Source of the DNA: Candidatus Delongbacteria bacterium
Lineage (GTDB): Bacteria; Delongbacteria; UBA4055
Reading direction: 5' to 3'
Assembly: GCA_027858795.1 (NCBI GenBank)
Contig: JAQICF010000117.1
Span: forward strand, 1 to 16,921
DNA length: 16,921 bases
Of this stretch, positions 2,175 through 16,921 are shown one piece after another; position 1 is the stretch's first letter; every line of letters begins with the position of its first letter. The notes under the pieces are model-generated. The model was not told the origin of the DNA. It made no database searches and saw only the letters and a program-made list of their open reading frames with translations. The position numbers and the translations under genes were made by a program.

Positions 2175-2561
2175 ATGAAGAAAGTAATAACATACGGAAC
2201 TTTCGATTTATTTCACTATGGTCATTTAAAAATTCTTGAAAGAGCAAGATCTTACGGTGATTATCTGATTGTAGCAGTTTCGACAGATGAATTCAATGCC
2301 CTTAAAGGTAAAATTTGCACATATCCATATGAACACAGATCAAAAATCGTTGAAGCTTTGAAATTTGTTGATGAAGTTATCCCGGAGAATAATTGGGAAC
2401 AGAAAATCGATGATATAAGAAATAACGAAGTAGATGTATTTGTAATTGGAAATGATTGGGAAGGTAAATTCGATTTTTTGAAAGAATACTGCAAGGTCAT
2501 TTACTTGCCAAGAACAGATAATATATCAACTACCCAAATAAAAGAACATATCAGGAAATAA
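2175..2561 (+). CDS. tagD: Glycerol-3-phosphate cytidylyltransferase (CDP-glycerol synthase)
   Basis: Predicted to make CDP-glycerol from CTP and sn-glycerol 3-phosphate in the cytoplasm. At 128 residues it has the normal length of the TagD family. The nucleotidyltransferase signature is clear: GTFDLFHYGH near the N terminus (HxGH at residues 14-17) and an R-T-x-x-ISTT-x-IK motif at 113-123, equivalent to the RTxGISTT motif of TagD. The usual Gly before ISTT is Asn-116 here. Its ATG follows the exporter stop codon with no gap, so translation is probably coupled. Two TagB/TagF-like proteins at 10449 and 12668 are the likely users of CDP-glycerol. The family also contains related cytidylyltransferases for other alcohol phosphates, but those two partners favour glycerol. 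Confidence 0.9.
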   Translation: MKKVITYGTFDLFHYGHLKILERARSYGDYLIVAVSTDEFNALKGKICTYPYEHRSKIVEALKFVDEVIPENNWEQKIDDIRNNEVDVFVIGNDWEGKFDFLKEYCKVIYLPRTDNISTTQIKEHIRK

Positions 2562-2574
2562 GGAGATTTATCAG

Positions 2575-3516
2575 ATGAAAATAAGTGGCTTCTCTATGGT
2601 TAAGAACGGCATAAAATTATATTATCCTGTGGTTGAAATGATTAAATCAATTTTACCAATAGTTGACGAATTTATTATAGCTATAGGTGAAGGTGATGAT
2701 GATACAAGGGAAAAAGTAGCATCGATTGGAGATCCTAAGATTAAAATAATTGATACTAAATGGGATCTTGAAAAATATCCGAGAGGAATGGAGAACGCTC
2801 ACCAAACCGATATAGCAAAAAATGCTTGTACAGGTGACTGGCTATTTTATCTTCAGGCTGATGAAGTAATCCATGAAAAATATTTAAATAATATCAAAAA
2901 AGCCTGCGAAGACAATTTAAATAATAAAGAGATCGAAGGTCTACTTTTCAAATACAGACATTTCTGGGGTGATTACGATCATTATCACTCAGGACATGGT
3001 TGGTATCCTCATGAGATTAGAATTGTCAGGAACGATCCGGAGATACATTCATGGGAATCTGCTCAGTCATTCAGAAGAATTCCTGGTTTTGGTGGCATTA
3101 ACTACAGACAGAAAGAAGGAACATATAAGCTCAAAGTAGCATTGATAGATGCCTATGTTTATCATTATGGCTGGGTAAGGCCTCCTAATCTTATGGTAAA
3201 TAAGAAAAAAGCTTTAGACACCGTTCATAAGGGAGAAAAAAGAGTCGAAGAAATATATAAAGACAAATCTGACGAATTTGACTACGGCCCTTTGAATAGA
3301 CTTGCAGTATTTACAGAGACACATCCTGAAGTTATGAAAGAAATGATAGCTGAGATGAACTGGAAAGATAAACTACAATATTCAGGTAAACCTTCAGAAG
3401 AAAGAGAACTTCATAAACATGAAAAACCGAAATACAGATTCCTTTCCTTCATAGAAAAATACTTGAACGGTGGTAAGCAGATCGGTGGATTTAAAAACTA
3501 TAAGTTGATCAAATAA
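2575..3516 (+). CDS. Glycosyltransferase, GT2-like (GT-A fold)
   Basis: A 313-residue protein with the layout of a family 2 transferase. The start MKISGFSMVKNG is the usual first nucleotide-binding strand, a strand ending IAIGEGDDDT holds the next acidic cluster, and LFYLQADEVI (L93-Q94-A95-D96-E97) occupies the place of the metal-binding DXD motif. The first Asp of that motif is replaced by Gln, giving QAD. The middle and C-terminal parts are rich in His, Tyr and Trp (for example HYHSGHGWYPHE), probably the acceptor side. No membrane segment is evident, so it should act at the cytoplasmic face. An AGGAG site at 2561-2565 overlaps the stop of the cytidylyltransferase and sets the ATG at 2575. 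The donor sugar and acceptor cannot be told from sequence. Confidence 0.8.
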   Translation: MKISGFSMVKNGIKLYYPVVEMIKSILPIVDEFIIAIGEGDDDTREKVASIGDPKIKIIDTKWDLEKYPRGMENAHQTDIAKNACTGDWLFYLQADEVIHEKYLNNIKKACEDNLNNKEIEGLLFKYRHFWGDYDHYHSGHGWYPHEIRIVRNDPEIHSWESAQSFRRIPGFGGINYRQKEGTYKLKVALIDAYVYHYGWVRPPNLMVNKKKALDTVHKGEKRVEEIYKDKSDEFDYGPLNRLAVFTETHPEVMKEMIAEMNWKDKLQYSGKPSEERELHKHEKPKYRFLSFIEKYLNGGKQIGGFKNYKLIK

Positions 3517-3528
3517 TTAAGAGGAATA

Positions 3529-4251
3529 ATGAATATTTACGATACTCACTTTAAAGATGTTAAATTTTCAACAAATTTGAAATTTGAAATTCCATTTTCT
3601 GAAAAAAATAACGAAGATAGAATTACAATTTTAAAAAAACTTGTTTCAAAGAAGAATATTATTCATTTAGGATGTGCTGATCATTTAGAAATCATTGAAA
3701 AAAAAATGAAGCATAATACTTGGCTGCATAAACACCTGAACGAATCGGCAAATAAATGTTTGGGGATTGATATTAATGAAAAAAGTATTGATTTCATAAA
3801 ACAAGATCTTGGATACACAAATACTATTTGTGCAAATATACTAACAGATAATATCTCGGCAATAACAGATCAGAAATGGGATATTCTTGTTCTGGGTGAG
3901 ATTCTTGAGCACATTGATGATCCGGTAGAGTTCCTTAAAAATATAAAGGCTAAATATCAGAATAACATTGAGACAATTATTATAACAGTACCCAATGCGT
4001 TCTATATTGATAATTTTTATAATACTGTTAGCGATGTTGAAATTATTAACTCAGACCATCGTTACTGGTTTACTCCTTACACCCTTTCTAAAATTATGGT
4101 TTCAGCAGGTATTAAGCCTACAGAAATTTATTTATGCCAAAGATTTCCATATAATACTAGATCTCTAAGATTGAAAAAATTATTTAAAAAATGGATATTA
4201 AAAAAACATCCTTATAGTAGAAATACTATCATTGAATTGGGTTGTTTTTAG
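3529..4251 (+). CDS. Class I SAM-dependent methyltransferase
   Basis: A 240-residue Rossmann-fold methyltransferase. Motif I is IHLGCADH (residues 45-52), the acidic residue binding the ribose of S-adenosylmethionine is Asp-81 in GIDINEKS, and the motif IV region is GEILEHIDDP (123-132), typical of the Methyltransf_11/23 (UbiG-like) group. A C-terminal HRYWFTPYTL segment resembles proteins of this group found in glycan clusters. It probably methylates a sugar or a lipid-linked saccharide made by its neighbours; a chain-capping role is possible but unproven. The start is supported by AGAGG a few bases upstream, 12 bases after the preceding stop. The C terminus is basic (KKLFKKWILKKH), which could help it sit at the membrane. 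Confidence 0.82.
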   Translation: MNIYDTHFKDVKFSTNLKFEIPFSEKNNEDRITILKKLVSKKNIIHLGCADHLEIIEKKMKHNTWLHKHLNESANKCLGIDINEKSIDFIKQDLGYTNTICANILTDNISAITDQKWDILVLGEILEHIDDPVEFLKNIKAKYQNNIETIIITVPNAFYIDNFYNTVSDVEIINSDHRYWFTPYTLSKIMVSAGIKPTEIYLCQRFPYNTRSLRLKKLFKKWILKKHPYSRNTIIELGCF

Positions 4252-4315
4252 ATTATTAATTTAATATTGAAGAATTGGAAATATATTCTAATTATGCAGT
4301 TGGAGAAATAATAAG

Positions 4316-5527
4316 TTGAAAAAAGTATTAATAATTTCATACTACTTCCCGCCAAACGCGGGTGCTCATGTCCAAAGAATTACTAAATTTGCAAAATATC
4401 TGTCTTGTTTTGGATATGAACCTATCATTTTAACAAACAAGATACATTCGAAAAGAACAGATAATATTTTAGCAAGCGAAGTATCTCATATAAAAAAATA
4501 TTACTGCCCTGATCTAGGGAAAATCATACCCGGTGAAATTAAAAAAACATTATCTAGATTCCTTCAGCCTGATAAACAATCGATCTGGAGGTTTACTTTG
4601 ATTAAATATGCTTTAAAAATTATTAAAAAAGAAAATATTGATATTGTTTTTGTCTCAAATCCACCTCATTCAGTAGGATATTTCGGATCAATAATTTCAA
4701 ATAAAGCAAAAATACCATATGTTTTAGATTTCCGGGACGAATGGATTACTTTCCCATTATTCAAAAAGAAAAAACATCTAGATGTTCAGGAAGCTATGTA
4801 CAATAAAATGTTACTAAACTGCACAGCTATAACAACAATAAATAAAACCATTAAAGAGCGTCTGAAGAAAAGTTTTCCAAATGAGATACCTTGCCATGTA
4901 ATTTACAACGGTTTCGATGATACTGATATCCCCGAAATTACAAACAATATTACAGATGGAAAAATTCGAATATGTTATATCGGAAGATTCATTCACTTTC
5001 ATGATCCAACAGCTTTTTTTAAAATGCTACAGAAGATTTTATTATCGGATGATTCTATCAGAAACAACATTGAATTTATAAGTATAGGTGATAGGAAGAC
5101 TAATGAAAGTTGGATGAAAAAATTTCCAGAAATTCTTTCAATTACAGAATTCACAGGCTATATTCCTTTGCAAGAGGCTTACAAGATTATTGGAAATTGT
5201 GATGTTTGTCTAGTTTCTCTTACAAATTACGGAGAAAGTTCTGCTTTTCCATTAAAAGTATTTGACTATGTTGCTATGGAGAAACCAATCATTGCGTTCT
5301 TGGAAAAAAAGGATGAGTTTTACGATTTTTTGGAAGGATATAATGCTTCATGTATTATTTTAACAGAAAATAATTCTGATGTTGAAGATACAGATAGACT
5401 TTTTAGATTTTTGAAAAATGTAAAATCACATACGATTAATATAAAGAGCAGTTATAAAGTTGATTTCGCTAGAAAGAAACAGACTCAAAAACTCGCAGAA
5501 GTATTCAATAAATGCTTAAATTTATGA
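4316..5527 (+). CDS. Glycosyltransferase family 4 (GT-B fold), WbuB-like
   Basis: A 403-residue GT-B transferase. The N terminus SYYFPPNAGAHVQRI (starting at residue 8) is the acceptor-side glycine loop of WbuB-like GT4 enzymes. The donor-binding half contains GRFIHFHDP, SIGDRKTNES, FTGYIPLQEAY and the FPLKVFDYVAMEKPII segment (F311 onward) that contacts the nucleotide sugar in this group. The start is TTG at 4316, chosen because GGAG lies at 4302-4305 and the conserved MKKVLIISYYFPP begins immediately. It follows a 64-base gap, the largest inside the operon. Its last four bases overlap the preferred start of the next gene. The transferred sugar is not predictable. Confidence 0.85.
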   Translation: MKKVLIISYYFPPNAGAHVQRITKFAKYLSCFGYEPIILTNKIHSKRTDNILASEVSHIKKYYCPDLGKIIPGEIKKTLSRFLQPDKQSIWRFTLIKYALKIIKKENIDIVFVSNPPHSVGYFGSIISNKAKIPYVLDFRDEWITFPLFKKKKHLDVQEAMYNKMLLNCTAITTINKTIKERLKKSFPNEIPCHVIYNGFDDTDIPEITNNITDGKIRICYIGRFIHFHDPTAFFKMLQKILLSDDSIRNNIEFISIGDRKTNESWMKKFPEILSITEFTGYIPLQEAYKIIGNCDVCLVSLTNYGESSAFPLKVFDYVAMEKPIIAFLEKKDEFYDFLEGYNASCIILTENNSDVEDTDRLFRFLKNVKSHTINIKSSYKVDFARKKQTQKLAEVFNKCLNL

Positions 5528-6444
5528 AAAACAACAAAAAAATACTAATAATAACACATCCTGGGTTTAAGATCGGGATTCAAAATGTTGCCCGTTCTCT
5601 TAATGAATTTACTATTGATGTTTATTCTTTCAAAGATAAAGAGTGGAGAAACAGATCTATATTTTCAAGGTTCAGTCTAGTAAGAAAGTATAATATTGTA
5701 CATTTTTTCTGGGGTTATGCAAAAATTTTTGATTTTATTATATATAGACTGCTTGGAAATTCTAAGATAATAAATCATTTTATCGGCACTGATCTGTATA
5801 ATATAATCAAACGCTCATTTCTCAAGCGTACAGAACTCAAATTATGCTCTTATTTATCAAATTTTTCATGTGTAAGCAGTATCTTATCGGAAGATCTAAG
5901 AAAAATAAATATTCAATCTTCAATTTTACCTTTTGTGAATCAGAATATAAAAAAAAGGAATTTAAATTACCCTTTAGAAAACAGAATAATGGTTTATCTT
6001 CCTTCTGAAAGAAAGAAGTTTTTTAAGCATGACATGCTTTTAAAATTAGCAAAAGAAATGAAAGATATCAATTTTACATGGTTTCCATACAAAAAAGATC
6101 CAAATGAAATATTACCCGATAATATTTCTACTATAGAGCGTATCGAGAGAGAAAATATGTTTAACACATTTAATGAACATAAGATCTTTATACGCATACC
6201 TGAACATGATGGACTTCCTAATACAATTCTTGAAGCATTAAGCATGGGGCGGTGGGTCATTTGGAGTTATGAAATGAATAACGTCACCAAAGTAAATAAT
6301 TACGACGAACTATATCAGTCTGTTAAGTTCATGATAGAAAATCCTAACCCAAACGTTGAAGGTGCGGATTTTGTGATTAATAATTATTCATTTAAACATA
6401 TATGTGAGTTATTCAACAAAAACTACAGAGAGCTACTGATTTGA
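5524..6444 (+). CDS. Glycosyltransferase, GT4-like
   Basis: A compact, divergent GT-B protein of 306 residues. The recognisable part is the donor-site segment FIRIPEHDGLPNTILEAL, where the usual E-x7-E pair appears as Asp-229 and Glu-237, followed by SMGRWVIW. The N-terminal half has FFWGYAKIFDF and HFIGTDLY, which resembles acceptor-side regions of GT4 enzymes. The ATG at 5524 is preferred because it forms an ATGA overlap with the previous stop, the same 4-base coupling seen at the next junction. An in-frame ATG at 5512 would add four residues (MLKF), and neither start has a clear Shine-Dalgarno sequence. It is shorter than most GT4 enzymes (350-400 residues) but both domains appear present. 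The substrate is unknown. Confidence 0.78.
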   Translation: MKNNKKILIITHPGFKIGIQNVARSLNEFTIDVYSFKDKEWRNRSIFSRFSLVRKYNIVHFFWGYAKIFDFIIYRLLGNSKIINHFIGTDLYNIIKRSFLKRTELKLCSYLSNFSCVSSILSEDLRKINIQSSILPFVNQNIKKRNLNYPLENRIMVYLPSERKKFFKHDMLLKLAKEMKDINFTWFPYKKDPNEILPDNISTIERIERENMFNTFNEHKIFIRIPEHDGLPNTILEALSMGRWVIWSYEMNNVTKVNNYDELYQSVKFMIENPNPNVEGADFVINNYSFKHICELFNKNYRELLI

Positions 6445-7580
6445 ATATTGCTTATGTCCATACCGGCGACTGGCCTTCAAATTCACCCAGCACTACATTT
6501 GCAACCTATAATTGTATTGGACTTTCTAAGCATGCAGAAACATGTCATTTTTTCATAAAAAGAAATTCTAATAGATCCTCTGACGAATTATTTTCCGAAT
6601 ATTTCAATATGAAAAGGCCTGAGAATCTGATCATTCATCAAATGAACAAACCTTCTATAAATTCAAATTTCTTTTACTACAGAAAAATTTACAAAGAATT
6701 GAGCCTTATGCTCAAAAGCGGTTCCATTGATGCAATAATAACTCGAAGTGTAACATTCCTGCCATATCTTGTAAAACTCAAAAATAAATTTAATGCCAAA
6801 GTATATTTTGAATCCCATGATTTCTTTGCTGATCTTTCCTTGCGTAAGGATATTAACATCAATAAAAAAGTTAAACAATCTAAGATCGAAAACAAATTCA
6901 TCCCTCAGCTAACAGGATTGATCTGCCTTCAAGAAGCACAGAAGAAATTATATCTCAATGTTTTCCCTGACTTGAAAGCCGGAGTTTTCAGAACTGGTAT
7001 ATTGAATTATCACAAAACCGGTTCAAATAAAAAATATATTTCTTACATTGGTTCTCTGGATACTCTGAAAGGAGTAGAGACATTGATCGAATCTTTGCAA
7101 TACACAACAACTAAACCGAAGCTTCTAATAATCGGTGGCAAAAACAAATTAGAAATTGAGAAAATAGAAACATTTATCAAAAATGTAACTCCTGAAGCTG
7201 AAGTTATTATTTCAGGATGGATAAATAAAAAGAAACTTGATGAATTATTAAAGGAAACTATATTAGGCATTGTTCCTATGAGAGATACTTTCTTTAACAG
7301 GTTTCTTACATCTCCTTTGAAATTGTTCGATTTCTATAGCTACGGAATTCCTGTAATTTGTTCTGATCTACCTACAGGTCGTGAGTTGATATCTGAAAAT
7401 ATGACCGGATTATTTTTTGAACCCGGAAATCCTCAAGACCTTGCAAAGAAAATTGATTCACTTCTTATTGATGACAATAAAATCGCAGAAATGAGTAATT
7501 ATATTTTTGAGAACACATCAGATTTACTTTGGGAAAACAGAGGAAACAAAATAATTGAATGGATAAAAGGTCATGAATAA
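6441..7580 (+). CDS. Glycosyltransferase family 4
   Basis: A 379-residue GT-B transferase. The N terminus YVHTGDWPSNSPSTTFATYN is the acceptor-side loop, SHDFF and GLICLQEAQK belong to the inter-domain region, and the donor domain shows YIGSLDTLKGVETLIESL, LLIIGGK and the SPLKLFDFYSYGIPVICSD segment starting at Ser-291. The tail TGLFFEPGNPQDLAKKI is typical of Glycos_transf_1 domains. Translation begins at TTG (6441), which overlaps the previous stop as TTGA. Its final eight bases overlap the following gene. This arrangement implies tightly coupled expression of successive transferases. The donor and linkage cannot be assigned. Confidence 0.87.
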   Translation: MNIAYVHTGDWPSNSPSTTFATYNCIGLSKHAETCHFFIKRNSNRSSDELFSEYFNMKRPENLIIHQMNKPSINSNFFYYRKIYKELSLMLKSGSIDAIITRSVTFLPYLVKLKNKFNAKVYFESHDFFADLSLRKDININKKVKQSKIENKFIPQLTGLICLQEAQKKLYLNVFPDLKAGVFRTGILNYHKTGSNKKYISYIGSLDTLKGVETLIESLQYTTTKPKLLIIGGKNKLEIEKIETFIKNVTPEAEVIISGWINKKKLDELLKETILGIVPMRDTFFNRFLTSPLKLFDFYSYGIPVICSDLPTGRELISENMTGLFFEPGNPQDLAKKIDSLLIDDNKIAEMSNYIFENTSDLLWENRGNKIIEWIKGHE

Positions 7581-8334
7581 TAAACTTTCTGTAGCGATAA
7601 TAACCAAAAACGAAGAGAATAACATTGCAAGATGCTTAAACTCTGTGTCTTGGGCGGATGAAATTGTTGTTGTTGATTCCGGCTCTACAGATAAAACTGT
7701 TGATATATGTGAAAAACATAGCTGCAAAATAATTACAACCGATTGGCTTGGATTCGCAAAAACGAAACAATTTGCTGTAGATAATTGCAGTAATGACTGG
7801 GTTCTTGTTCTTGATGCTGATGAAGAAATAACCGAACCTCTAAAAATTAAAATTGAGCTTATACTTCAAAATCCTAAATTCTCAGGATATAGAATTAAAA
7901 GAAGTTCGTTCTATCTGGGAAAATTGATCAAGCATTGCGGGTGGGATAAAGATTATACTCTTAGACTCTTTGATAAAAATAAAGGGAAGTTCAACGAAAA
8001 ACTTGTTCATGAATCAATTATTATAAAAAACGGTAAAATAGGAATTATTGAAGAAGTAATGTTACACTATACATATCCAACTGTTGATCTTCACTATGCA
8101 AAGATGGAAATGTATTCAGAATTAGGAGCAAAAACTCTTTTTAATAAAGGACGCAGATCAGGAATTTCCAATGCAGTTATCAGGGGTGCTTTAAAATTTA
8201 TAAAAATGTATATAGTTAAGCTTGGTTTCTTAGATGGAAAAACAGGATTTATACTTTCTATTAACTCATCATACGGAGTGTATCTAAAGTATTTAAAGTT
8301 GAGTAAATTAAATAAAAACAAAACTGATGAATAA
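7573..8334 (+). CDS. LPS core glycosyltransferase, WaaE/KdtX-like GT2
   Basis: A 253-residue family 2 transferase close to the WaaE/KdtX group, whose characterised members add beta-1,4-glucose to inner-core heptose. Motifs are AIITKNEENNIARCL at the N terminus, VVDSGSTDKT (Asp-35) and the metal-binding DAD in VLDADEE (residues 81-83). Group hallmarks are LVHESI, a HYTYPTVDLHYAKMEMYSEL stretch, and a C-terminal membrane-associating segment ending LGFLDGKTGFILSINSSYGV. It lies within the same coupled run as a heptosyltransferase, which fits a role on the heptose region. It overlaps both neighbours by eight bases. Family membership is clear, but the actual sugar may differ in this lineage. Confidence 0.88.
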   Translation: MNNKLSVAIITKNEENNIARCLNSVSWADEIVVVDSGSTDKTVDICEKHSCKIITTDWLGFAKTKQFAVDNCSNDWVLVLDADEEITEPLKIKIELILQNPKFSGYRIKRSSFYLGKLIKHCGWDKDYTLRLFDKNKGKFNEKLVHESIIIKNGKIGIIEEVMLHYTYPTVDLHYAKMEMYSELGAKTLFNKGRRSGISNAVIRGALKFIKMYIVKLGFLDGKTGFILSINSSYGVYLKYLKLSKLNKNKTDE

Positions 8335-9430
8335 TATTAAAATTTTACATATTGACACAGAAATGGGTTGGAGAGGTGGTCAGCAGCAGGCTGTTTATCT
8401 TTTTGAGAATTTATTTAAAAAAGGTTTTTCTACTGAATTTGTCTGTAAACCAGGATCAGAACTATCCGCATATTTTAAGAAGAATGATCTTCCATACATT
8501 GAAGTCAAAATGAGCAATGAACTTGATTTCATATCTGCCTACAAGATTGCAAAACACTGTAAAAATAATAAATTTAATATTCTGCACCTACATTCCGCTC
8601 ATGCTCACTCAATAGGCCTTCTTGCAAAATTTTTCTATAGGAAACTTAAGATCATCGGTGTTCGAAGAGTAGATTTTAAAATTAAAAATAATATTTTCAG
8701 CAGATTCAAGTATAACTCATGGCTGATTGACAAAATAGTTTGCATCTCCGAAGAAATAAAAAGAGTTATGCTCAGCAGTGGTGTTGATAAAGATAAATTA
8801 ACTGTAATTCACAGCGGTGTTAATTTAAATAAGTTTGATAATGTTAAAGCCGATCCTTATCTGAGAAAACAATATAACATACCTGCGAATGATATTATTA
8901 TAGGTACAGTAGCTGCACTTGTCGGTCACAAGGATTATCCAAATTTACTGAAAGCTGCCTCAATTGTTCTGAAGAAAAGAAAAGATGTGACTTTTCTTGC
9001 AGTTGGTGATGGTAAAAACGAAGAAGATATAAAAAAGCTTCACAAAGAACTCGGGTTAGGAAACAAATTCATTTTTGCAGGTTACCAGAAAGAAGTAGGT
9101 AAATTTCTGAGATCTTTTGACATTTTCGTTCTGGCTTCAAAGATGGAAGGCCTTGGAACTTCAATCCTTGATGCACAAAGCGTAGCACTTCCAGTCATTG
9201 CAACCAAAGCGGGAGGAATTCCCGAAATGATCGAAAACGGAGTAAACGGGATCCTTGTGGAACCACAATCACCTGAGAAACTGGCAGAAGCTATCTCTGA
9301 TCTTGTTGACAATGAAGAGAAAAGAAATATTATTGGTAAAAATGGAAATGTGAGTGTTGAACAATTCAGTATAGATCATACAGTAGAAAAAAATATCAAC
9401 CTGTATGAAGAATTATTGGGATCAGAATAA
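8327..9430 (+). CDS. Glycosyltransferase family 4
   Basis: A 367-residue GT-B transferase with full GT4 architecture. The N-terminal DTEMGWRGGQQQAVYLF is the glycine-rich acceptor loop, LHLHSAHAH and GVRRVDFK follow, and the donor domain carries VIHSGVNLNKF, GTVAALVGHKDYPNLL, FLAVGDGKNE and the EGLGTSILDAQ motif. The E-x7-E pair here is Glu-274 and Asp-282, a conservative change also seen in some LPS-associated GT4 proteins. The ending GIPEMIENGVNGILVEP is typical of Glycos_transf_1. It overlaps the WaaE-like gene by eight bases, and its stop shares one base with the heptosyltransferase start (TAATG). It likely extends the LPS core, but the sugar is unknown. Confidence 0.9.
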   Translation: MNNIKILHIDTEMGWRGGQQQAVYLFENLFKKGFSTEFVCKPGSELSAYFKKNDLPYIEVKMSNELDFISAYKIAKHCKNNKFNILHLHSAHAHSIGLLAKFFYRKLKIIGVRRVDFKIKNNIFSRFKYNSWLIDKIVCISEEIKRVMLSSGVDKDKLTVIHSGVNLNKFDNVKADPYLRKQYNIPANDIIIGTVAALVGHKDYPNLLKAASIVLKKRKDVTFLAVGDGKNEEDIKKLHKELGLGNKFIFAGYQKEVGKFLRSFDIFVLASKMEGLGTSILDAQSVALPVIATKAGGIPEMIENGVNGILVEPQSPEKLAEAISDLVDNEEKRNIIGKNGNVSVEQFSIDHTVEKNINLYEELLGSE

Positions 9431-10440
9431 TGAATTATAAAAAGATACTTGTAATACAGACAGCTTTTCTTGGAGATGCGATCTTAACTACACCAATGCT
9501 GAAAGGGCTCAAGGATATTTTCCCGGATTCTAAAATCGATATTTTATGTTTACCTCAAACAAAATTAGTTTTTGAAAACAATCCCAATATAGATGATCTT
9601 ATTATTTTTGATAAAAGGAATAAAACGAAGAAATTCATCTCTTTCATAAAATCAATTATCAATATTAGAAAAAACGAGTATGATCTCGGTATTTCGATCC
9701 AAAGTTCATTTACCTCTTCCCTGCTGATGAACCTTGGAAATATCAAAACAAAACATGGTTTTTCAAGGCAAAAATTAATAGATATGTCAGTTAATCATGC
9801 CGAGATAAAAGGTGCACATAAGATCGATAAAATTCTAAGGTTATTAGAACCGTTCTCAAATAATAAATTTGATCGTCAAACTGAACTTTATTATTCTGAA
9901 GAAGATAAAATTTTTGTTGAAAATAAAATTGGAGATATTGAGAATTTTAAAGGTAAAATCATTGGTATTGCTCCGGGTTCTGTCTGGTTTACAAAGAAAT
10001 GGCCTAAGGAGTATTTTACCACTTTGGTTAAAGAACTTACTGAGAACAATTTCAAAGTTTACCTTTTAGGAGGTCCGGAAGACTTTAATCTCTGTGAAGA
10101 AATAGCAAGAGATACAACAGCAGTGAATTTAGCAGGAAAATTAACGATCTTACAATCCGCTGCAGCTATAGAAAAATGCGACCTCATGGTTACAAATGAC
10201 AGTGCTCCTCTTCACATTGCCAATGCTGTTAAAACTGATGTAATCGCCATTTTTGGACCCACAGTAAAAAGCTTGGGATTCTATCCATACCGAGAGAATG
10301 ATATTGTGATTGAACTGGACATGGATTGCAGACCTTGTGGCAAACATGGTGGGAACAAGTGTCCTCTTGGACATCATAATTGCATGAAAAATATTACTCC
10401 ACAGATGGTCTTAGATGTAATTCTAAATAAAATAGGTTAA
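9430..10440 (+). CDS. waaF: ADP-heptose:LPS heptosyltransferase (WaaF type, GT9)
   Basis: Transfers L-glycero-D-manno-heptose from ADP-heptose to the LPS inner core at the cytoplasmic face of the inner membrane. The 336-residue length is normal for GT9. Visible motifs are IQTAFLGDAILTTPML with the probable catalytic Asp-16, the donor phosphate-binding PGSVWFTKKWP (182-192), LLGGPED, VTNDSAPLHIANA (Asp-257) and AIFGPT. The C-terminal Cys cluster DCRPCGKHGGNKCPLGHHNC (Cys-300, 303, 311 and 318) is a hallmark of the heptosyltransferase II branch rather than WaaC. This is the strongest evidence in the window for a heptose-containing LPS and hence a diderm envelope. The start forms a TAATG overlap with the preceding stop. 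Confidence 0.92.
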   Translation: MNYKKILVIQTAFLGDAILTTPMLKGLKDIFPDSKIDILCLPQTKLVFENNPNIDDLIIFDKRNKTKKFISFIKSIINIRKNEYDLGISIQSSFTSSLLMNLGNIKTKHGFSRQKLIDMSVNHAEIKGAHKIDKILRLLEPFSNNKFDRQTELYYSEEDKIFVENKIGDIENFKGKIIGIAPGSVWFTKKWPKEYFTTLVKELTENNFKVYLLGGPEDFNLCEEIARDTTAVNLAGKLTILQSAAAIEKCDLMVTNDSAPLHIANAVKTDVIAIFGPTVKSLGFYPYRENDIVIELDMDCRPCGKHGGNKCPLGHHNCMKNITPQMVLDVILNKIG

Positions 10441-10448
10441 GATTATTA

Positions 10449-11579
10449 ATGGGAAAAAACATCGTTTTTCTATATTTAAATGGCACTCACCAATTATTCC
10501 ATAGTGCCATGACAGCTTTTGAACTTGCAAGAATGCAAACGGATTTCAATGTTCAACTTATTGCTTGTCACATTGATCACTATGACATATTAAATTCAAT
10601 GAAAGAATCTTATCCTGAAAGCAAATGTCAAATAATTTTACTCCCATTACCATTTCGATTTAAATATTTTAATTTTAAGAAGAAAACTTATCCCTCGCCA
10701 TATTCTACAATTAAAAAAGCAAAAGAATATTTAAAAGATGCCGTAACCATTGTTACAACATCTCACATTTTACCGAAATTATTAAAAAAAATAAATGTCT
10801 TAAACCCTAAAGTTATTTATCAATTCCATGGATGCGGAGACAGGAAATATAGTTTTGATCCTGAATATAAATATTTTGATCTTCTTTTAGCTCCCGGTTC
10901 ATATCACAAGCAAAGATTACTTGCAGAAAATATTGTTTCTGAGGATAAAATAGAAATTATCGGATATCCAAAACTTGATATTCCATTAGAGATAAAAAGT
11001 ATCAAAAAATCATTATTTAATAATAATAATAAAATATTTTTATATACTCCGCACTGGGATCCGAAATTATCCTCGTATAAAATTTGGGGTGAAGAAGTAA
11101 TTAACTACTTTAAAATCAATAATCAATATAATTTAATTTTTGCACCTCATGTTCAACTTAAACACTGGCAATATAAATGCGGTTACAACACAAATCTAGA
11201 TCATTTGAGATCAGAAAATATTCATATTGATTTTGGTAGTCTCCAAAGTGTAGATGGAACTTATACTAATATTTCAGATATTTATATTGGGGATGTCAGT
11301 AGTCAAATTTATGAGTTTATTGCACTTCAACCGAAACCTGCAATATTTTTAAATCCTAATAATTTTAAATGGCAAAACAATATTGATTTCAAATTCTGGG
11401 AGCTTGGAATTGTTATTGAAAATATTAGTGAGTTAGAAAAAGCTATTCAGTTATCATACGAATCAAATGCTCTTTCTGAACTTCAGCAAAAAAGAATAGA
11501 TGAGTATATCAATATTACCGATGAGAAATCCTCTGTTAGGGCAGCTGAGACAATATTGAAATTCACAAAATTGTTATAG
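10449..11579 (+). CDS. CDP-glycerol glycerophosphotransferase-like protein (TagB/TagF fold)
   Basis: A 376-residue GT-B protein resembling the Glyphos_transf family (TagB/TagF), which moves glycerol phosphate from CDP-glycerol to a glycan or lipid acceptor. Family landmarks are an N-terminal HG pair (His-127, Gly-128 in YQFHGCGD), GYPKLD after the inter-domain linker, LYTPHWDPK (198-206), FAPHVQL, and DIYIGDVSSQIYEFIA with Asp-282. The last matches the family's D-x-x-I-x-D-x-S-S consensus. There is no membrane segment. It starts eight bases after the heptosyltransferase stop, without a strong Shine-Dalgarno sequence, and closes the plus-strand operon. Its base composition is visibly more AT-rich than the second homologue at 12668, and the two are not close copies. 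Whether it uses CDP-glycerol is inferred from the tagD gene in the same operon. Confidence 0.8.
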   Translation: MGKNIVFLYLNGTHQLFHSAMTAFELARMQTDFNVQLIACHIDHYDILNSMKESYPESKCQIILLPLPFRFKYFNFKKKTYPSPYSTIKKAKEYLKDAVTIVTTSHILPKLLKKINVLNPKVIYQFHGCGDRKYSFDPEYKYFDLLLAPGSYHKQRLLAENIVSEDKIEIIGYPKLDIPLEIKSIKKSLFNNNNKIFLYTPHWDPKLSSYKIWGEEVINYFKINNQYNLIFAPHVQLKHWQYKCGYNTNLDHLRSENIHIDFGSLQSVDGTYTNISDIYIGDVSSQIYEFIALQPKPAIFLNPNNFKWQNNIDFKFWELGIVIENISELEKAIQLSYESNALSELQQKRIDEYINITDEKSSVRAAETILKFTKLL

Positions 11580-11595
11580 TGAAATCATTAGATCG

Positions 11596-12525
11596 TTACC
11601 AATACTTTTTAAAATACTCTATAACTTCGTTATTGTAATACTCTCTTGGATTGTCTGATTTCTCGCATGGAATATTTGAAAGAGTAATCGTCTTTTCTTG
11701 TGCTTTATTTTTTCTGAAGACTCTTGATTGATGCTTATCCCTCTTACTTCTGAATAAAAGTTCTGATTGTGCCGGGATAGAATATCTTATTATTGAGTTT
11801 CTGGCAAAATATCCACTCAACCAAATATCGTCCATATAAAATGCTCCATCAGGTGCACCTTTGTAATCCCAAAGAGATTCATCAATCAATTTCAGCGTTA
11901 GAAGATAACCTCCTACTCCGGTAATGATATCAACCTCTCTGACCTGATCAAGTTTTGGTCCTAATACTACTTTTGAATTTGAATAAATGAAACTTTCATC
12001 TAGGCACCTTCCCCTGTTACATAAAATAGCGTTTGGGAATTTTTTATGATACTTGATAAAATTAGAAATCATTGTTCTTTGATAGATTTGATCATCATCT
12101 ACTATTACAAAAACAACATCATCATTATTGTTTTCAAATTCCCTCTGTAAAATTGGAATAAATTTAGTTGCAGGTCCCCAATCTTTATCTGATTTTAAGA
12201 TTGTAATTTTTGGAGTTTTTATAAAATAATTTGAATTTTTATTTTTTTCTATTATTTTATTTATAAATTCCGGAATAATATACTTTTTTTTCTCTCTAAC
12301 AGATAATTCAGGTATAGATATAACTATTTCATCCGGTAATATGGTTTGATTAAGAAGTGAATTAATAGTTTTCTTTAAATTTACAATTCTGCTTGGAAGA
12401 GTTGTAAATGAGACAATGATTTTATGACTACCTGATTTCTCAACTTCCCCGGATGTAAATAAACCTCTAATCTTATGCTTGAAATAGAAATTGGAGCTAT
12501 TGATAAATTTATTAAATGAAATCAT
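11596..12525 (-). CDS. DXD glycosyltransferase, GT2-like
   Basis: A 309-residue protein on the strand opposite to the operon. Its GT-A features are VSFTTLPSRIVNLKKTINSL, SLLNQTILPDEIVISIP, the WGPATKF segment, a metal-binding triple Asp in VIVDDDQIY (Asp-143 to Asp-145), a VGGYLLT loop and an acidic MDDIWLSGYFA motif (Asp-232, Asp-233) in the position of the GT-A catalytic base. No signal peptide or membrane segment is evident, so it should act in the cytoplasm. Its gene converges on the TagB-like gene ending at 11579 with only a 16-base gap and no hairpin terminator. A good promoter sits just upstream. Its separate orientation suggests an independently acquired or independently controlled modification of the same glycan. 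The substrate is unknown. Confidence 0.8.
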   Translation of the reverse strand: MISFNKFINSSNFYFKHKIRGLFTSGEVEKSGSHKIIVSFTTLPSRIVNLKKTINSLLNQTILPDEIVISIPELSVREKKKYIIPEFINKIIEKNKNSNYFIKTPKITILKSDKDWGPATKFIPILQREFENNNDDVVFVIVDDDQIYQRTMISNFIKYHKKFPNAILCNRGRCLDESFIYSNSKVVLGPKLDQVREVDIITGVGGYLLTLKLIDESLWDYKGAPDGAFYMDDIWLSGYFARNSIIRYSIPAQSELLFRSKRDKHQSRVFRKNKAQEKTITLSNIPCEKSDNPREYYNNEVIEYFKKYW

Positions 12526-12667
12526 TTTTTATATACACATTACAATTATAAAATAACGCTTTATATTAAGTTTTTAATAAAATTAAGTCAAGTCTTTAAT
12601 AAAAAAGATTCCATATTGCTTGAAATTATATTATTTTGCATTGAATTCTATTAAATAAGAGCTTAAA
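12526..12667. promoter_or_regulatory. Divergent intergenic region between two glycan genes
   Basis: A 142-base, very AT-rich gap between the divergent glycosyltransferase (minus) and TagB/TagF-like gene (plus). The minus-side promoter is listed separately. On the plus side I could not fix a promoter: TTGCTT at 12616-12621 has no acceptable -10 at normal spacing. Only a weak AAGAG precedes the ATG at 12668. An imperfect inverted repeat, ATTAAG / CTTTAAT around 12582-12600, overlaps the -35 box of the minus promoter, but it is short and may be chance. Confidence 0.4.
12563..12591 (-). promoter_or_regulatory. Sigma70-type promoter for the minus-strand glycosyltransferase
   Basis: Reading the minus strand, TTGACT (12591-12586) is followed by a 17-base spacer and TAATAT (12568-12563). 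Five of six bases match the -35 consensus and four of six the -10 consensus, with ideal spacing. Transcription would start near 12556, giving a leader of about 30 bases before the ATG at 12525. This is one of the three best promoter matches in the window and has the same form as the two before the rhodanese gene. Confidence 0.6.
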
Positions 12668-13756
12668 ATGATCAAAGTACTGTTCGATCTTAAAAAAGAA
12701 TATTATTTCAATTCACTTTATCCACTGTATAAAGAAATGGTGAAAGATCCCAATTATGATATATACTTTCGTATAGGCAAAGATCAGAAAAGATTCCTTG
12801 GTATTTTTCTTATAAATGAAAAGAACAGGATAGCTGAATGGATGAAAAAAGAGGGTTACAAGCTTACTGAAGATAGAAGTGGATTTGATCTTGTTATCTG
12901 TGGGGATGCATTTAAAGATCCTGAAAAGTACGGTGATTGTATTCGTGTCCACCTTGATCACGGAGTAGGTATTAAAACTCTTAGAATACGAAATATAGTT
13001 AAGCAGAAGGATTATCATTATCATGTTTTCCTCGAAGGTCAATATTGGTATGACTACATTAAATCTCTTAACTGGGAAAATAAAGCAAATTTTTATGTTA
13101 CAGGGCTTCCTAAACTTGATCCTTTCTTCTGGGAAGGAGAATATGACAAAGAAGCAATTGTTAAGAAAATCGGTATCGATCCTGCAAAGAAAACAGTTCT
13201 TTATGCACCTTCCTATAAACCAAGCTGTATCGAGCATATCAAAGGTAGGATCGCTGAACTGCTTCCAAAATATAATCTTGTTATAAAGCTTCACCCTTAT
13301 AGCTGGGCTGGAAAATATGCTTCACATTCTCAGCACAAGTTCTATGAAAAACTGGCTAAGAATAATTCTTCGGTTTTCCTGATCGAAAAAGAAGACTACG
13401 ATATTTATCCATATATGTATATTTCAGATACTCTTATCAGTGATACTTCAAGCGTTATAAATGAATTCCTTGCAATGGGTAAACACGGTATTATCTATGA
13501 ATTACCTTATGATAAGCTTAATCACTCTGATGGAATGCCAGTATTGTCTATAGACCCAAAAGAATGGTTGCTAGGTGCATTTCCTCACATGAAATCACCT
13601 GATGATCTTATTCCAGCTCTAGAACAAGCTTTGAATCCAACTGATGAGATGAAAACAAAGCTTGAAGAATACAGAAATTATTTCTTCACTGGTTTAGATG
13701 GTAAGTCAGGTGAAAGAGTAAAAGCTAAGATCGATGAAATAATGAAGCTTATTTAA
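12668..13756 (+). CDS. CDP-glycerol glycerophosphotransferase family protein (TagB/TagF-like)
   Basis: A 362-residue GT-B protein of the Glyphos_transf family, a better match than the homologue at 10449. Motifs are LDHGVGIKT with His-98, VTGLPKLDPFFW, the LYAPSYKPS nucleotide-side loop (178 onward), IKLHPYS (His-209) and DTLISDTSSVINEFLAMG with Asp-259, Ser-261 and Ser-262. In characterised family members these regions bind CDP-glycerol and catalyse glycerol-phosphate transfer. There is no membrane helix, as expected for a peripheral enzyme at the inner membrane. It probably adds one phosphoglycerol unit or a short chain to the surface glycan, using CDP-glycerol from the tagD product. It is transcribed alone, divergent from a glycosyltransferase, and its 3' end overlaps the convergent rhodanese gene by eight bases. 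The donor assignment is inferred. Confidence 0.87.
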   Translation: MIKVLFDLKKEYYFNSLYPLYKEMVKDPNYDIYFRIGKDQKRFLGIFLINEKNRIAEWMKKEGYKLTEDRSGFDLVICGDAFKDPEKYGDCIRVHLDHGVGIKTLRIRNIVKQKDYHYHVFLEGQYWYDYIKSLNWENKANFYVTGLPKLDPFFWEGEYDKEAIVKKIGIDPAKKTVLYAPSYKPSCIEHIKGRIAELLPKYNLVIKLHPYSWAGKYASHSQHKFYEKLAKNNSSVFLIEKEDYDIYPYMYISDTLISDTSSVINEFLAMGKHGIIYELPYDKLNHSDGMPVLSIDPKEWLLGAFPHMKSPDDLIPALEQALNPTDEMKTKLEEYRNYFFTGLDGKSGERVKAKIDEIMKLI

Positions 13757-14420
13757 CCTTAGGACCTACATTCTTTTTTACCGGATATCCATTTCGTGCC
13801 CATTCTGAAATCCCGTACCGCATGTTATAAATATTCTTAAATCCATTACTAATCAGTATCCTAGACGCAACAGTACTTCGGTTTCCAGTTGCACAATAGA
13901 TCAGGATCGGCTTATCCTTATAGTCGAGTAGTTTTGTATATTCGCGTTGAATATTCTGAACAGGAATTAGTTTTGAACCTTCAATATGACCCATACTATA
14001 TTCCCTAGGTGTTCTTACATCCAGTATCAATGGTGAAATATTTGCGATTATCTCTTTAGCTTCTTTGGCATTAACTGCTTGGTAATTTGGTTGTGAATAC
14101 TCAATCACATTGATCTTACCTTTTAAACCACCGTATTCAAATTCGTACATACCGGTTTTCTTGAACTTCACATAATTCTTCTTCCCTTTTACAGCAGGAA
14201 AAACATGCTTGATCTTAAGACTGTCAACCGTAAGTGTTCTTCTCTTTACTTCCTTTGCAGGAAAAACTACATAATCTCCACGATATAACGTTATCGCTTT
14301 AGAAGAGACTTCATCATTCGACAATATTCTAAGACCGTTAACTATTTTACCTGAAACTTCTGCTGCCAACGAACTTGTAACCGTAGAAACAAGCAGAGAT
14401 AATAATAATAATAACTTCAT
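13749..14420 (-). CDS. Secreted rhodanese-like sulfurtransferase with an N-terminal beta-domain
   Basis: A 223-residue exported protein. Residues 1-20 (MKLLLLLSLLVSTVTSSLAA) form a signal peptide. Residues about 21-110 form an all-beta region (VSGKIVNGLRI, YRGDYVVFPA, MYEFEYGGLKGKINVIEY) that looks cupredoxin- or immunoglobulin-like. I see one His and no Cys there, so a copper site is unlikely. Residues about 118-215 are a rhodanese domain: LILDVRTPREYSMGHIEGS and the active-site loop CATGNRS with Cys-176. It should handle persulfide sulfur or thiols in the periplasm. The start at 14420 is chosen over an in-frame ATG at 14459 because AGGAG (14430-14426) lies five bases upstream and the longer form would bury the signal peptide. 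It follows the DUF3570 operon by 170 bases but has its own promoters. Confidence 0.88.
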   Translation of the reverse strand: MKLLLLLSLLVSTVTSSLAAEVSGKIVNGLRILSNDEVSSKAITLYRGDYVVFPAKEVKRRTLTVDSLKIKHVFPAVKGKKNYVKFKKTGMYEFEYGGLKGKINVIEYSQPNYQAVNAKEAKEIIANISPLILDVRTPREYSMGHIEGSKLIPVQNIQREYTKLLDYKDKPILIYCATGNRSTVASRILISNGFKNIYNMRYGISEWARNGYPVKKNVGPKVK

Positions 14421-14425
14421 AGATG

Positions 14426-14430
14426 CTCCT
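14426..14430 (-). promoter_or_regulatory. Ribosome binding site that fixes the rhodanese start
   Basis: AGGAG on the minus strand, five bases before the ATG at 14420. It decides between this start and the in-frame ATG at 14459. The latter has no Shine-Dalgarno sequence and lies at about the predicted transcription start. Confidence 0.8.
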
Positions 14431-14465
14431 TTGTATATTTTACTTTTCATATTTCTCATATGTGT

Positions 14466-14590: not shown

Positions 14591-16018
14591 TTAATCCCCT
14601 ATCACGAATTTGGTCCCGAATGTAATTATATGAGATTTTAATCCTGTATCTCTGTCATAATAACTATAGTCCAAACTTACAGTCTTAAGTTTAAATTTCC
14701 ATATATGGAATTCTGTAAAAACATCAGTGTACTTTATTCCAAACCCATACTGTGAAGCACTAAATTCAGATAGATCATAGTCAGATGTATAGAATTCCTC
14801 TGTCGATAAATGTTCTTCATAAGGAGCGAAATAATCTGAAGCTGTCTGTGTATAGTATCTGTAGGAAGGATATAAAGTAAATTTATCTGATACTTTAATT
14901 GGGAGTTCTATTTCAGCTGTATGAGAATTCACACCCCAGTCATCAAAGTAATACCTGTAATAATTCCTTAAAACCAAATATTCGTTAACAAAATAATTAA
15001 ATCTGATACCAACTGGTGTTTTCAAACGGTTATCAGGGAGTCTTTCGATATCATCGGCAAGTTGAAATACATCTGTATTTTCAGAAGAGGTGTAATATGG
15101 AATACTCGACTCCTCGCCAATAAAATAGTTATCTCTGTCCTTAAAGTATACTCTCTGCATTGGATTGGAAAGCCAGCCTGACTGAATCACAATATCTGAA
15201 AACAATGAAATCTGGGCATCGGGTGACAACATTTGAGAAAATATCACTGAGAAAGAATAAGTATTTCTACCGTTATCCTCTACCAGAGTAGTATTGACAG
15301 GACTCCAATTTACAGGATTATCGTCTTCAACTTCAATTCCATTATTATCCAGAATATCCACTTCATTGAAGAACCCTTCTGATAAGTCTCCACCCTCCTT
15401 AATATAACTGATAATTTCAGTCGGATAAGCAGGTCTCCATGAATCAATATATACATTTACTTTTAATCCCAATTCAGTATTTTGTTTATTGAAAAGCCTT
15501 GTAAAATTTCCTCCAAAACCCAACGAAGAATAGTCATATTCATTAGCATAGCTAAAATTAGCTCCGAAAATATTATTTCTATCATCGGATGAATGACTGT
15601 AACCTAAGTTCACGCTTGTCCACACATCTTCACTTGAAGCTCCCGAAGATTCTACCCAAGGACTACCTGTAACAACACCCGTAGTAGAAGCTCCTGAAAA
15701 AGGATTAAGGTTGCTTGAAGATGCAGAAGTATATGCTGATACAGTACCGTCTATTGAAAGAACATCATCATCATTAACAGGAATAGAAATATTTATATAA
15801 GTCGCATAGTCTGTTAATTCCTCAGTCCCTATACCCCCTGTAACTGCTGCATTATCTCCATCTTGAGTATAGTAACTCGTAAGAATATCTATTTCCGTAC
15901 TTTCAAGGACTCTCTTCTTGTATTCAGAATTCCCTTGGGAATACATACTACTGACAGCGATCATCAATATAATAACATATACTGAAATATTTGTTCTAAT
16001 TACATCCACAACCGCCAC
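14591..16018 (-). CDS. DUF3570 outer-membrane beta-barrel protein
   Basis: A 475-residue DUF3570 protein. Family landmarks are strong: YYTQDGDNAAVTGGIGTEEL near the N terminus, FSYANEYDYSSLGFGGNFTRL, the MQRVYFKD segment, DDIERLPDNRLKTPVGIRFN, LRNYYRYYFDDWGV, and the very characteristic YRYYTQTASDYFAPYEEHLS followed by TEEFYTSDYDLSEFSASQYG. The sequence alternates amphipathic strands rich in Tyr, Ser, Asn and Asp with acidic loops, as expected of a barrel of about 16 or more strands in the outer membrane. I see no Cys. The signal peptide runs from about Arg-8 to Gln-28 (RTNISVYVIILMIAVSS then MYSQ). The start is a GTG at 16018 (or GTG at 16009), overlapping the end of the DUF4266 gene. The function of DUF3570 is not established; its linkage with DUF4266 and ApbE is the main clue. 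Confidence 0.9.
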   Translation of the reverse strand: MAVVDVIRTNISVYVIILMIAVSSMYSQGNSEYKKRVLESTEIDILTSYYTQDGDNAAVTGGIGTEELTDYATYINISIPVNDDDVLSIDGTVSAYTSASSSNLNPFSGASTTGVVTGSPWVESSGASSEDVWTSVNLGYSHSSDDRNNIFGANFSYANEYDYSSLGFGGNFTRLFNKQNTELGLKVNVYIDSWRPAYPTEIISYIKEGGDLSEGFFNEVDILDNNGIEVEDDNPVNWSPVNTTLVEDNGRNTYSFSVIFSQMLSPDAQISLFSDIVIQSGWLSNPMQRVYFKDRDNYFIGEESSIPYYTSSENTDVFQLADDIERLPDNRLKTPVGIRFNYFVNEYLVLRNYYRYYFDDWGVNSHTAEIELPIKVSDKFTLYPSYRYYTQTASDYFAPYEEHLSTEEFYTSDYDLSEFSASQYGFGIKYTDVFTEFHIWKFKLKTVSLDYSYYDRDTGLKSHIITFGTKFVIGD

Positions 16019-16214
16019 CTGCTTTTCCGCCGTTAGCTCCTGCTGAACCTTCTCTATATATCTGAAAGGTTATCTCAAATTTGTTCTCTTTCCTGTCAGA
16101 TAATTCCATATCAGGATCACTTAAATTCACTTTTTCATATCCCTTAACTGTAGCACATGACGATAACATTAGCATCATCAGAAGAATGACTACAATAAAT
16201 ATCTTATGCTTCAT
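15996..16214 (-). CDS. DUF4266 small lipoprotein with GGGCGCN tail
   Basis: A 72-residue lipoprotein of the DUF4266 family. A short basic start and hydrophobic core lead to the lipobox LSSC with lipidated Cys-20; Ala-21 at position +2 favours outer-membrane delivery. The mature part is only about 53 residues: a conserved-looking YEKVNLSDPDMEL segment (26-38), FEITFQIYREGSAG (46-59), then a Gly-rich tail ending GGGCGCN (66-72) with Cys-69 and Cys-71. The invariant-looking tail and neighbouring ApbE suggest covalent modification or metal/redox chemistry, but no biochemical role is known to me. Its ATG overlaps the ApbE stop as ATGA, and its 3' end overlaps the DUF3570 start by 23 bases, so all three genes are translated as a block. 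Confidence 0.9.
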   Translation of the reverse strand: MKHKIFIVVILLMMLMLSSCATVKGYEKVNLSDPDMELSDRKENKFEITFQIYREGSAGANGGKAGGGCGCN

Positions 16215-16921
16215 TTCTGATTTATCCTTATGTTTTTGGAGTTATGTAAATTTCCTTTTTCGTCAACTATTACACATTCTATATCCGGCAGTTGATCGAT
16301 CCTGTCTATACCTGCATCGATTCCCATTACAAATATTGATGTCGCGAGTGCATCTGCCAATTCAGCAGAAGATGAGAATACTGTAGCACTTATGATTCCA
16401 GTTGTAGGATAACCTGTTCTGGGATCTATTATATGAGAATATCTTATACCGTTGAAAATTACAAATTTCTCGTAATTACCTGAAGTGACTACCGCTCCGC
16501 TAGTAATTGGTAATAGAGCAAAAGCTTTTTCCTTATTCATTGGATTGGTTATAGCTACGGTCCACTCTTTCCCATCAGGCTGCTTACCCCATGTATTCAT
16601 ATCTCCGGAAGCATTTATTATCCCAGAAGTTACTCCTTTTGATATCAAAAGCGATTTAGCTCTATCTGCGGCATAACCTTTACCTATTCCTCCGAAACCT
16701 ATCTTCATTCCCTCAAGTTTCAGAAATACAGAATGATCTTTTTTATCCAAAACTATGTTTTCATAACCCACTTTTGATACTGACAATTTTATATTTTTCT
16801 CTGTAGGAAATTCTTTCATACTACCGTCAAATTTCCAGATCCTATCCATTGATGCGTAAGTTATGTCAAAGGCACCGTCTGTCAATTTTGAAATTGCAAT
16901 TGAACGTTCGATCAGATCAAA
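16211..16921 (-). CDS. apbE: FAD:protein FMN transferase ApbE (5' end beyond window)
   Basis: The C-terminal 236 residues of an ApbE protein; the reading frame is open to the right edge (first visible residues FDLIERSIAIS). ApbE cleaves FAD and attaches FMN through a phosphoester bond to a Thr or Ser of target proteins, normally outside the cytoplasm, using Mg2+. Family motifs seen are TDGAFDITYASM, GGIGKGYAADRA, INASGDMNTWGKQPDG, VTSGNYEKF, SHIIDPRTGYP and the metal-binding ELADALATSIFVMG. The N-terminal part, including any lipoprotein signal, is not visible. No classical flavinylation target (FMN_bind domain with a D-G-x-T/S-x-A type motif) is present in the window, so the direct neighbours DUF4266 and DUF3570 are candidate partners. 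It is the first visible gene of the overlapping three-gene operon. Confidence 0.93.
   Translation of the reverse strand, partial: FDLIERSIAISKLTDGAFDITYASMDRIWKFDGSMKEFPTEKNIKLSVSKVGYENIVLDKKDHSVFLKLEGMKIGFGGIGKGYAADRAKSLLISKGVTSGIINASGDMNTWGKQPDGKEWTVAITNPMNKEKAFALLPITSGAVVTSGNYEKFVIFNGIRYSHIIDPRTGYPTTGIISATVFSSSAELADALATSIFVMGIDAGIDRIDQLPDIECVIVDEKGNLHNSKNIRINQK

Follow-up and report, generated by a model that had tools for sequence, protein, structure and literature searches.

The window analysed here is the whole stretch of 16,921 nucleotides from a Candidatus Delongbacteria bacterium (assembly GCA_027858795.1, contig JAQICF010000117.1), and its last part, from 16921 down to 14591 on the minus strand, holds three genes of a putative redox system of the outer membrane. 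In the list of open reading frames (ORFs) they follow each other as an apbE gene cut at its 5' end, the gene of a DUF4266 lipoprotein and that of a DUF3570 barrel. The apbE part (16211..16921) encodes the C-terminal 236 residues of a FAD:protein FMN transferase (flavin adenine dinucleotide and flavin mononucleotide, respectively; PF02424, 236.2 bits). The DUF4266 gene (15996..16214) encodes 72 amino acids with a lipobox cysteine, Cys20, recognised by eye, and the C-terminus CGCN (PF14086, 69.6 bits), and the DUF3570 gene (14591..16018) encodes a predicted outer-membrane barrel of 475 amino acids without cysteine (PF12094, 121.9 bits). All three proteins score above the Pfam gathering cut-offs (25.6, 27 and 25 bits, respectively), and the genes stand where the initial annotation had placed them. 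The match of the window ApbE begins at position 55 of the 266 in the profile, its N-terminus lying beyond the window edge. By phmmer the visible part matches ApbEs of solved structure, 1vrm and 7esa among them, and aligns with these over the blocks HIIDPRTGYP and DALATS, which I take to be catalytic.

The first two genes overlap by the four nucleotides ATGA, as had been noted. The 23-base overlap proposed for the second pair depends on a GTG start at 16018; from the in-frame GTG at 16009 it would be 14 nucleotides. Such overlaps suggest translational coupling, not the fixed stoichiometry that had been read into them. The mature lipoprotein does have 53 residues when numbered from Cys20 of the lipobox LSSC, and its tail GGGCGCN is present.

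ApbE recognises the motif D-x-x-[ST]-G-A-[ST] and places FMN on its last residue, according to the portions of a 2025 review used here (PMC12052999). The window DUF3570 belongs to the PF12094 family and has two canonical sites of this kind, SGAS at residues 108-111 (15686..15697) and SGAS at residues 125-128 (15635..15646). A third site, TSAS at residues 97-100 (15719..15730), has Ser in the place of Gly. In a scan of the whole protein these three were the sole matches to [ST][GSA]A[ST], and their acceptor residues all fall in a single predicted loop, residues 98-129 (15632..15727), between the modelled strands 85-97 and 130-143; Thr97 of the first site is the last residue of the strand before it. 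I aligned the window protein with 135 DUF3570s from 140 loci of relatives (136 proteins in all), after dropping L143, L144, L146 and L213, which had no DUF3570 match, and the fragment of L067; for L041, whose DUF3570 is split over two ORFs, I used the longer one. In this alignment Ala99 and Ser100 of the first site are each found in 125/136 proteins, and the column of Ser128 holds Ser in 111/136 and Thr in 7/136.

The portions of Méheust et al. (2021, eLife, PMC8238504) available to this analysis, to which all statements on that paper refer, report that the DUF3570 of Chlorobium luteolum was flavinylated with its ApbE, and that both serines of its [ST]GA[ST] sites had to be replaced to abolish this. 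The co-expression constructs, as described there, had no DUF4266. Gene clusters described there unite ApbE and DUF3570 with DUF4266 and a thioredoxin-like protein of PF13899, and some of them include DsbD as well. The likeness to the window lies in the three families standing together, a DUF3570 with two [ST]GA[ST] sites and a CXC tail on DUF4266. The thioredoxin-like and DsbD genes form part of those clusters as well, whereas the window ends inside apbE, which cuts that region off, and therefore no such gene is visible. The operon is almost certainly a member of this published ApbE–DUF3570–DUF4266–thioredoxin-like system of envelope electron transfer. The earlier suggestion of an outer-membrane redox system is supported, and DUF3570 is very likely the substrate of ApbE here. 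What this study adds to the parts of the published description covered here is the shared location of the sites in one loop, clades of the motif with Ser or Ala for Gly, and fusions of thioredoxin to ApbE. A search for the family names in open-licence PubMed Central (PMC) text found only PMC8238504 on DUF3570 or DUF4266, and among the listings of a wider search of such text on ApbE and flavinylation there was nothing further on these two families.

The relatives were collected through DUF4266, and the linkage counts are therefore conditional on this gene. Of 461 relatives confirmed in this way the best 80 genome loci were kept, and wide regions were added for 20 of 22 places (or their neighbours) from one phylum search and for 40 places from a survey of 395 genomes; near-copies and overlapping loci are included in the counts, and the profile missed the DUF4266 of L007. 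At the best 80 of the 461 loci, apbE was found in 77 and DUF3570 in all 80, and the order of the three genes is conserved in relatives, as had been expected. The absence of apbE beside most pairs had been named as the outcome that would speak against the proposal; apbE lies within 6 kb and on the same strand as DUF3570 at 116 of 135 loci, which favours linkage. In the 395 genomes, all from the phylum of L051 (a Bacteroidia record), DUF4266 was detected in 113 and DUF3570 in 118, with all 113 shared and DUF3570 alone in the other 5 (Fisher p about 8e-94, not corrected for relatedness). The association of the three genes is beyond chance, and with 113/395 genomes the system is widespread in this phylum; DUF4266 was found in 17/82 genomes of the phylum of L061 and in 4/124 of that of L014.

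The sites themselves vary across the family. The loop region of the 135 relatives holds the canonical [ST]GA[ST] in 66, only a form without Gly, [ST][SA]A[ST], in 65, and neither in 4, and an apbE stands on the same strand no more than 6 kb away in 53/66, 59/65 and 4/4 of these, respectively. The Gly-less forms read D-H-Y-T-S-A-S, D-G-V-T-S-A-T, D-G-I-S-S-A-S and similar, with the Asp of the motif kept in many; the Flavobacterium type has DHYTSAS and NSSAS. The DUF3570 of L014, for its part, retains SGAS at the third site alone. Counting the residue pairs at place 94, which belongs to the first site, and place 126 in 134 of the 136 proteins gave Asp94 with Ser126 in 56, Ser94 with Gly126 in 46, Asp94 with Gly126 in 2 and Ser94 with Ser126 in none. 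The widened 7-mer Dxx[ST][GSA]A[ST] has 99 matches within the loop region of the 136 aligned proteins (with Gly in 21, and Ser or Ala in 78) against once in the other 48,444 residues, and 2.1 would be expected from shuffled loops; the first 30 residues were left out of this count, the pattern was framed after the family had been seen, and the proteins are related. On a quick tree built without the loop, with two identical DUF3570s removed for this purpose and several long-branch warnings, the presence or absence of Gly takes three changes. The three-change reconstruction places the 65 Gly-less proteins in two groups, one of 11 and one of the rest, and a single extra change allows one group, so that these proteins represent few evolutionary events, not 65.

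Because 59 of the 65 Gly-less relatives sit near apbE, the motif of ApbE is probably looser than stated, with a Gly-less form in two clades. The portions of PMC12052999 used here mention that a change from Gly to Ala in one ApbE substrate lowered flavinylation to about 50%. Two points weigh against a looser motif: the conserved serines of the Gly-less DUF3570s may be structural, and 13 proteins with a canonical site have no close apbE.

The predicted fold places the sites at one end of a barrel. The AlphaFold2 model of the window DUF3570, built with 55 sequences, is beta-barrel-like (predicted local distance difference test score, pLDDT, 86.2; predicted template-modelling score, pTM, 0.80), with about 16 long strands among the 19 listed, three strands of 3 residues being left out. 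With 16 strands taken, the loops on the side of the sites have 9, 32, 2, 55, 48, 4, 27 and 4 residues, and the turns on the opposite side 4, 5, 4, 2, 4, 13 and 10. The fold resembles solved outer-membrane barrels: the PDB matches listed by Foldseek are mostly such barrels, at low template-modelling scores, and those listed by VIA-align are outer-membrane barrel proteins, while a sequence search of DUF3570 against solved structures gave no match at E 0.1. As a rule both termini of an outer-membrane barrel are periplasmic, which would therefore put loop 98-129 on the extracellular side, and I consider it rather likely, from the model, that the flavins are found there. In section 5 of a 2024 follow-up (PMC11334425), the part of that paper covered here, DUF3570 was not modelled.

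The barrel region lacks Cys in 126/136 aligned DUF3570s, the window protein among them, and any thiol chemistry would therefore have to come from partners. DUF4266 offers such thiols. Its C-terminal Cys-Gly-Cys-Asn (residues 69-72, 15999..16010) corresponds to a feature of the whole family: in 217 distinct tails, taken from 285 entries (120 listed homologues and those of the loci), every one has CXC at its end, with just one or two residues after it. All 39 aligned DUF4266s keep the lipobox Cys. The AlphaFold2 model of the window protein (mean pLDDT 60.8, residues 61-72 below 50) shows a helix for the signal, a second, weak helix and a tail of low confidence, with no fold, and a sequence search against solved structures returned one weak row (E 0.92); the low-confidence tail suits a flexible arm and shows nothing more. 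Méheust et al. suggested that the CXC may be redox-cycling (PMC8238504). The initial annotation had likewise offered the tail as a thiol or metal carrier, which fits the invariant CXC, and I lean, without much assurance, towards DUF4266 as a thiol relay.

A thioredoxin-like partner, which had been anticipated beside these genes, is borne out in the relatives. In 71/80 loci apbE is immediately preceded by the end of an ORF of 110-200 amino acids with CxPC (the position before DUF4266 was used where no apbE was found), and the four examples checked with Pfam, from L001, L003, L045 and L014, are Thioredoxin_7. In L014 (2359-3738) the two are one protein of 460 residues, Thioredoxin_7 fused to ApbE, and this combination is found in 30 of the best 120 matches to it; the words 'fused' and 'fusion' are absent from the main text of PMC8238504. 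When only the top BLAST row of each protein is counted, the portion of ApbE inside the window scores a mean of 374 bits against 88 unfused ApbEs and 353 bits against 30 fused ones, and the top score is 393 bits for an unfused and 380 bits for a fused protein; the highest identity is 80.1% for a fused and 78.7% for an unfused one. As to a thioredoxin domain on the window's own ApbE, these comparisons point both ways.

Taken together, these observations could be explained as follows. ApbE would attach FMN to Ser111 and Ser128 of the DUF3570 barrel, presumably before the barrel is inserted, because ApbE works in the periplasm, and the loop with the flavins would come to lie on the extracellular side of the barrel or folded into it. 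DUF4266 would be a lipid-anchored flexible arm whose C-terminal CGC cycles between oxidised and reduced, taking electrons from the thioredoxin-like protein with CxPC whose gene directly precedes these genes in relatives; that protein may in turn be fed by DsbD or another donor. The CGC would pass these electrons to the flavins, because the barrel itself has no thiols, and the path would run from the thioredoxin-like CxPC over the CXC of DUF4266 and the FMN in the barrel loop to an acceptor outside, for which a metal (iron or copper) is my best guess. I regard this combination of a flavin-loaded barrel and a thiol relay as the likely explanation of the system. The published experiment covers flavinylation of a relative only, and I infer the location of the flavins, the path and direction of the electrons and their acceptor. 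A more far-reaching version seems doubtful as a whole: a haem-free conduit across the outer membrane in which two or three covalently bound FMNs on one extracellular-side loop of the cysteine-free barrel, loaded before insertion, are reduced from the periplasm by the CXC tail reaching into the barrel, and with about half of the sampled family using the unstated site Dxx[ST]-S/A-A-[ST] in two separate clades.

Several observations count against the relay just outlined. The window itself has no thioredoxin gene, its edge falling inside apbE, and other types of cluster (L136, L177) have a thioredoxin-like protein of the AhpC-TSA/Redoxin type. No experiment on DUF4266 was found in the literature, and it is not among the proteins tested in the portions of PMC8238504 covered here. 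The orientation of loop 98-129 is taken from what generally holds for barrels of the outer membrane, and the confidence of the model is low to middling in this loop (blocks of 61 to 79). Four DUF3570s near apbE have no site by pattern and read YASAS. As 13 of the 66 canonical-site relatives have no apbE within 6 kb, some of them on short contigs, adjacency to apbE is not universal and not a perfect guide. Finally, the CXC could bind a metal instead of cycling.

This last point leads to an alternative in which the CXC tail of DUF4266 carries copper, zinc or iron and delivers it to the barrel or across it; the flavins would then reduce the metal and would not be fed by the tail. CXC is a known metal-ligand pattern, and single relatives have metal-related neighbours (L008, L045 and L026). 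A scan of seven upstream neighbours at six loci, made up of the RND gene of L045 and six out of 68 listed genes, gave VIT1, in L008; a cytochrome b561; an RND pump; two proteins of the CusB/HlyD type, one of them, CusB-like, in L026; a cation ATPase; and an amino-acid permease. VIT1 also occurs in 25 DUF3570 clusters in the portions of PMC8238504 used here. On the other hand, metal genes are found in few of the neighbours scanned, and the usual partner is the CxPC thioredoxin-like ORF (71/80), which is also found fused to ApbE. The neighbours give a mixed signal that points weakly to metals, and I hold the metal carrier to be unlikely as the role of DUF4266.

The initial annotation offered, as one of two options, DUF4266 as the substrate of ApbE, with FMN on its tail, for example at Ser57, and the barrel displaying or transferring it. 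Its gene adjoins apbE, and the tail comes close to the motif with EGSAGAN (residues 55-61, 16032..16052), SGAN being found in 120/214 and AGAN in 49/214 parsed tails. Ser57, however, lies outside the acceptor place. This is occupied by Asn61, which has no hydroxyl, and DUF4266 is therefore very unlikely to be what ApbE flavinylates. The acceptor place holds Asn in 183 of the 214 tails, Ser or Thr in 17 and others in 14 (P0091, L001 and L032 failed the parsing pattern; by eye, all three have Asn). The full [ST]GA[ST] is found in 2/217 distinct tails, L051 and L131, neither of which has an apbE on its strand at up to 6 kb, the L051 genome having an ApbE elsewhere. Moreover, the published flavins sit on DUF3570, in constructs described without DUF4266 (PMC8238504). 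I therefore rejected this candidate, which is highly improbable. The rare DUF4266 of L051 with a full SGAT motif is encoded at 9989-10219 of that locus.

A cassette similar to those of ribosomally synthesised and post-translationally modified peptides, in which an enzyme modifies a small precursor that a membrane protein exports, had also been likened to this operon. A small protein with a conserved C-terminal tail does lie between genes of an enzyme and a membrane protein, but the invariant lipobox Cys is lipoprotein-like, the tail has no acceptor residue for ApbE and the published ApbE substrate is DUF3570 (PMC8238504). Among the sequences and the few neighbours scanned here nothing speaks for such a cassette, and I hold the idea to be scarcely credible.

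Compared with systems that are better known, the flavin-loaded barrel with its thiol relay resembles the FMN_bind chains (NqrC, RnfG and the extracellular electron transfer of Listeria) in the FMN that ApbE attaches outside the cytosol, whereas the carrier here is an outer-membrane barrel; a Pfam scan found no FMN_bind domain in the three window proteins. The cytochrome conduits of the Mtr type also combine a barrel with a redox partner at the outer membrane. In contrast to these, the three genes studied here have flavin and thiols in the place of haems.

As the system has already been published, the gain lies in a sharper view of its substrate, the location of the flavins and the breadth of the motif. 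The model indicates that the flavins are probably gathered in one outward loop of DUF3570, and if they do face outward, these bacteria would have a route of extracellular electron transfer without cytochromes. The motif by which ApbE substrates are searched for is probably drawn too tightly. Should ApbE tolerate Ser or Ala for the Gly, flavoproteome surveys built on [ST]GA[ST] overlook a large number of substrates.

Some neighbourhoods deserve a separate description. In L045 (2987-8537) an RND pump and a CusB-like membrane-fusion gene lie directly upstream of the thioredoxin-like gene, and the cytochrome b561 belongs to L009, where it hints at a quinol donor. L177 (2939-11806) has genes for an AhpC-TSA/redoxin protein, DUF4266, DUF3570, ApbE, DsbD and a multi-domain protein of the cytochrome c type. 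L136 (5408-11933) has DUF4266 and DUF3570, the latter with the motif DAITGAS, without a close apbE, together with an NHL-repeat protein with a tail of the type IX secretion system kind and a protein with an HZS_alpha domain (hydrazine-synthase-alpha-like). In the window, 131 bases downstream of DUF3570, a gene at 13749-14459 on the minus strand encodes a protein that starts with a signal-like segment and contains a rhodanese domain (PF00581); a constant place in the system is not supported for it, with matches in 3 of the 140 loci searched (L059, L078 and L203). The region 273-13756 of the window resembles an envelope-polysaccharide cluster, with a gene of the CDP-glycerol glycerophosphotransferase type (PF04464), a match to family-2 glycosyltransferases (PF00535) and what are presumably, from reading alone, an ABC (ATP-binding cassette) transporter and several glycosyltransferase-like genes.

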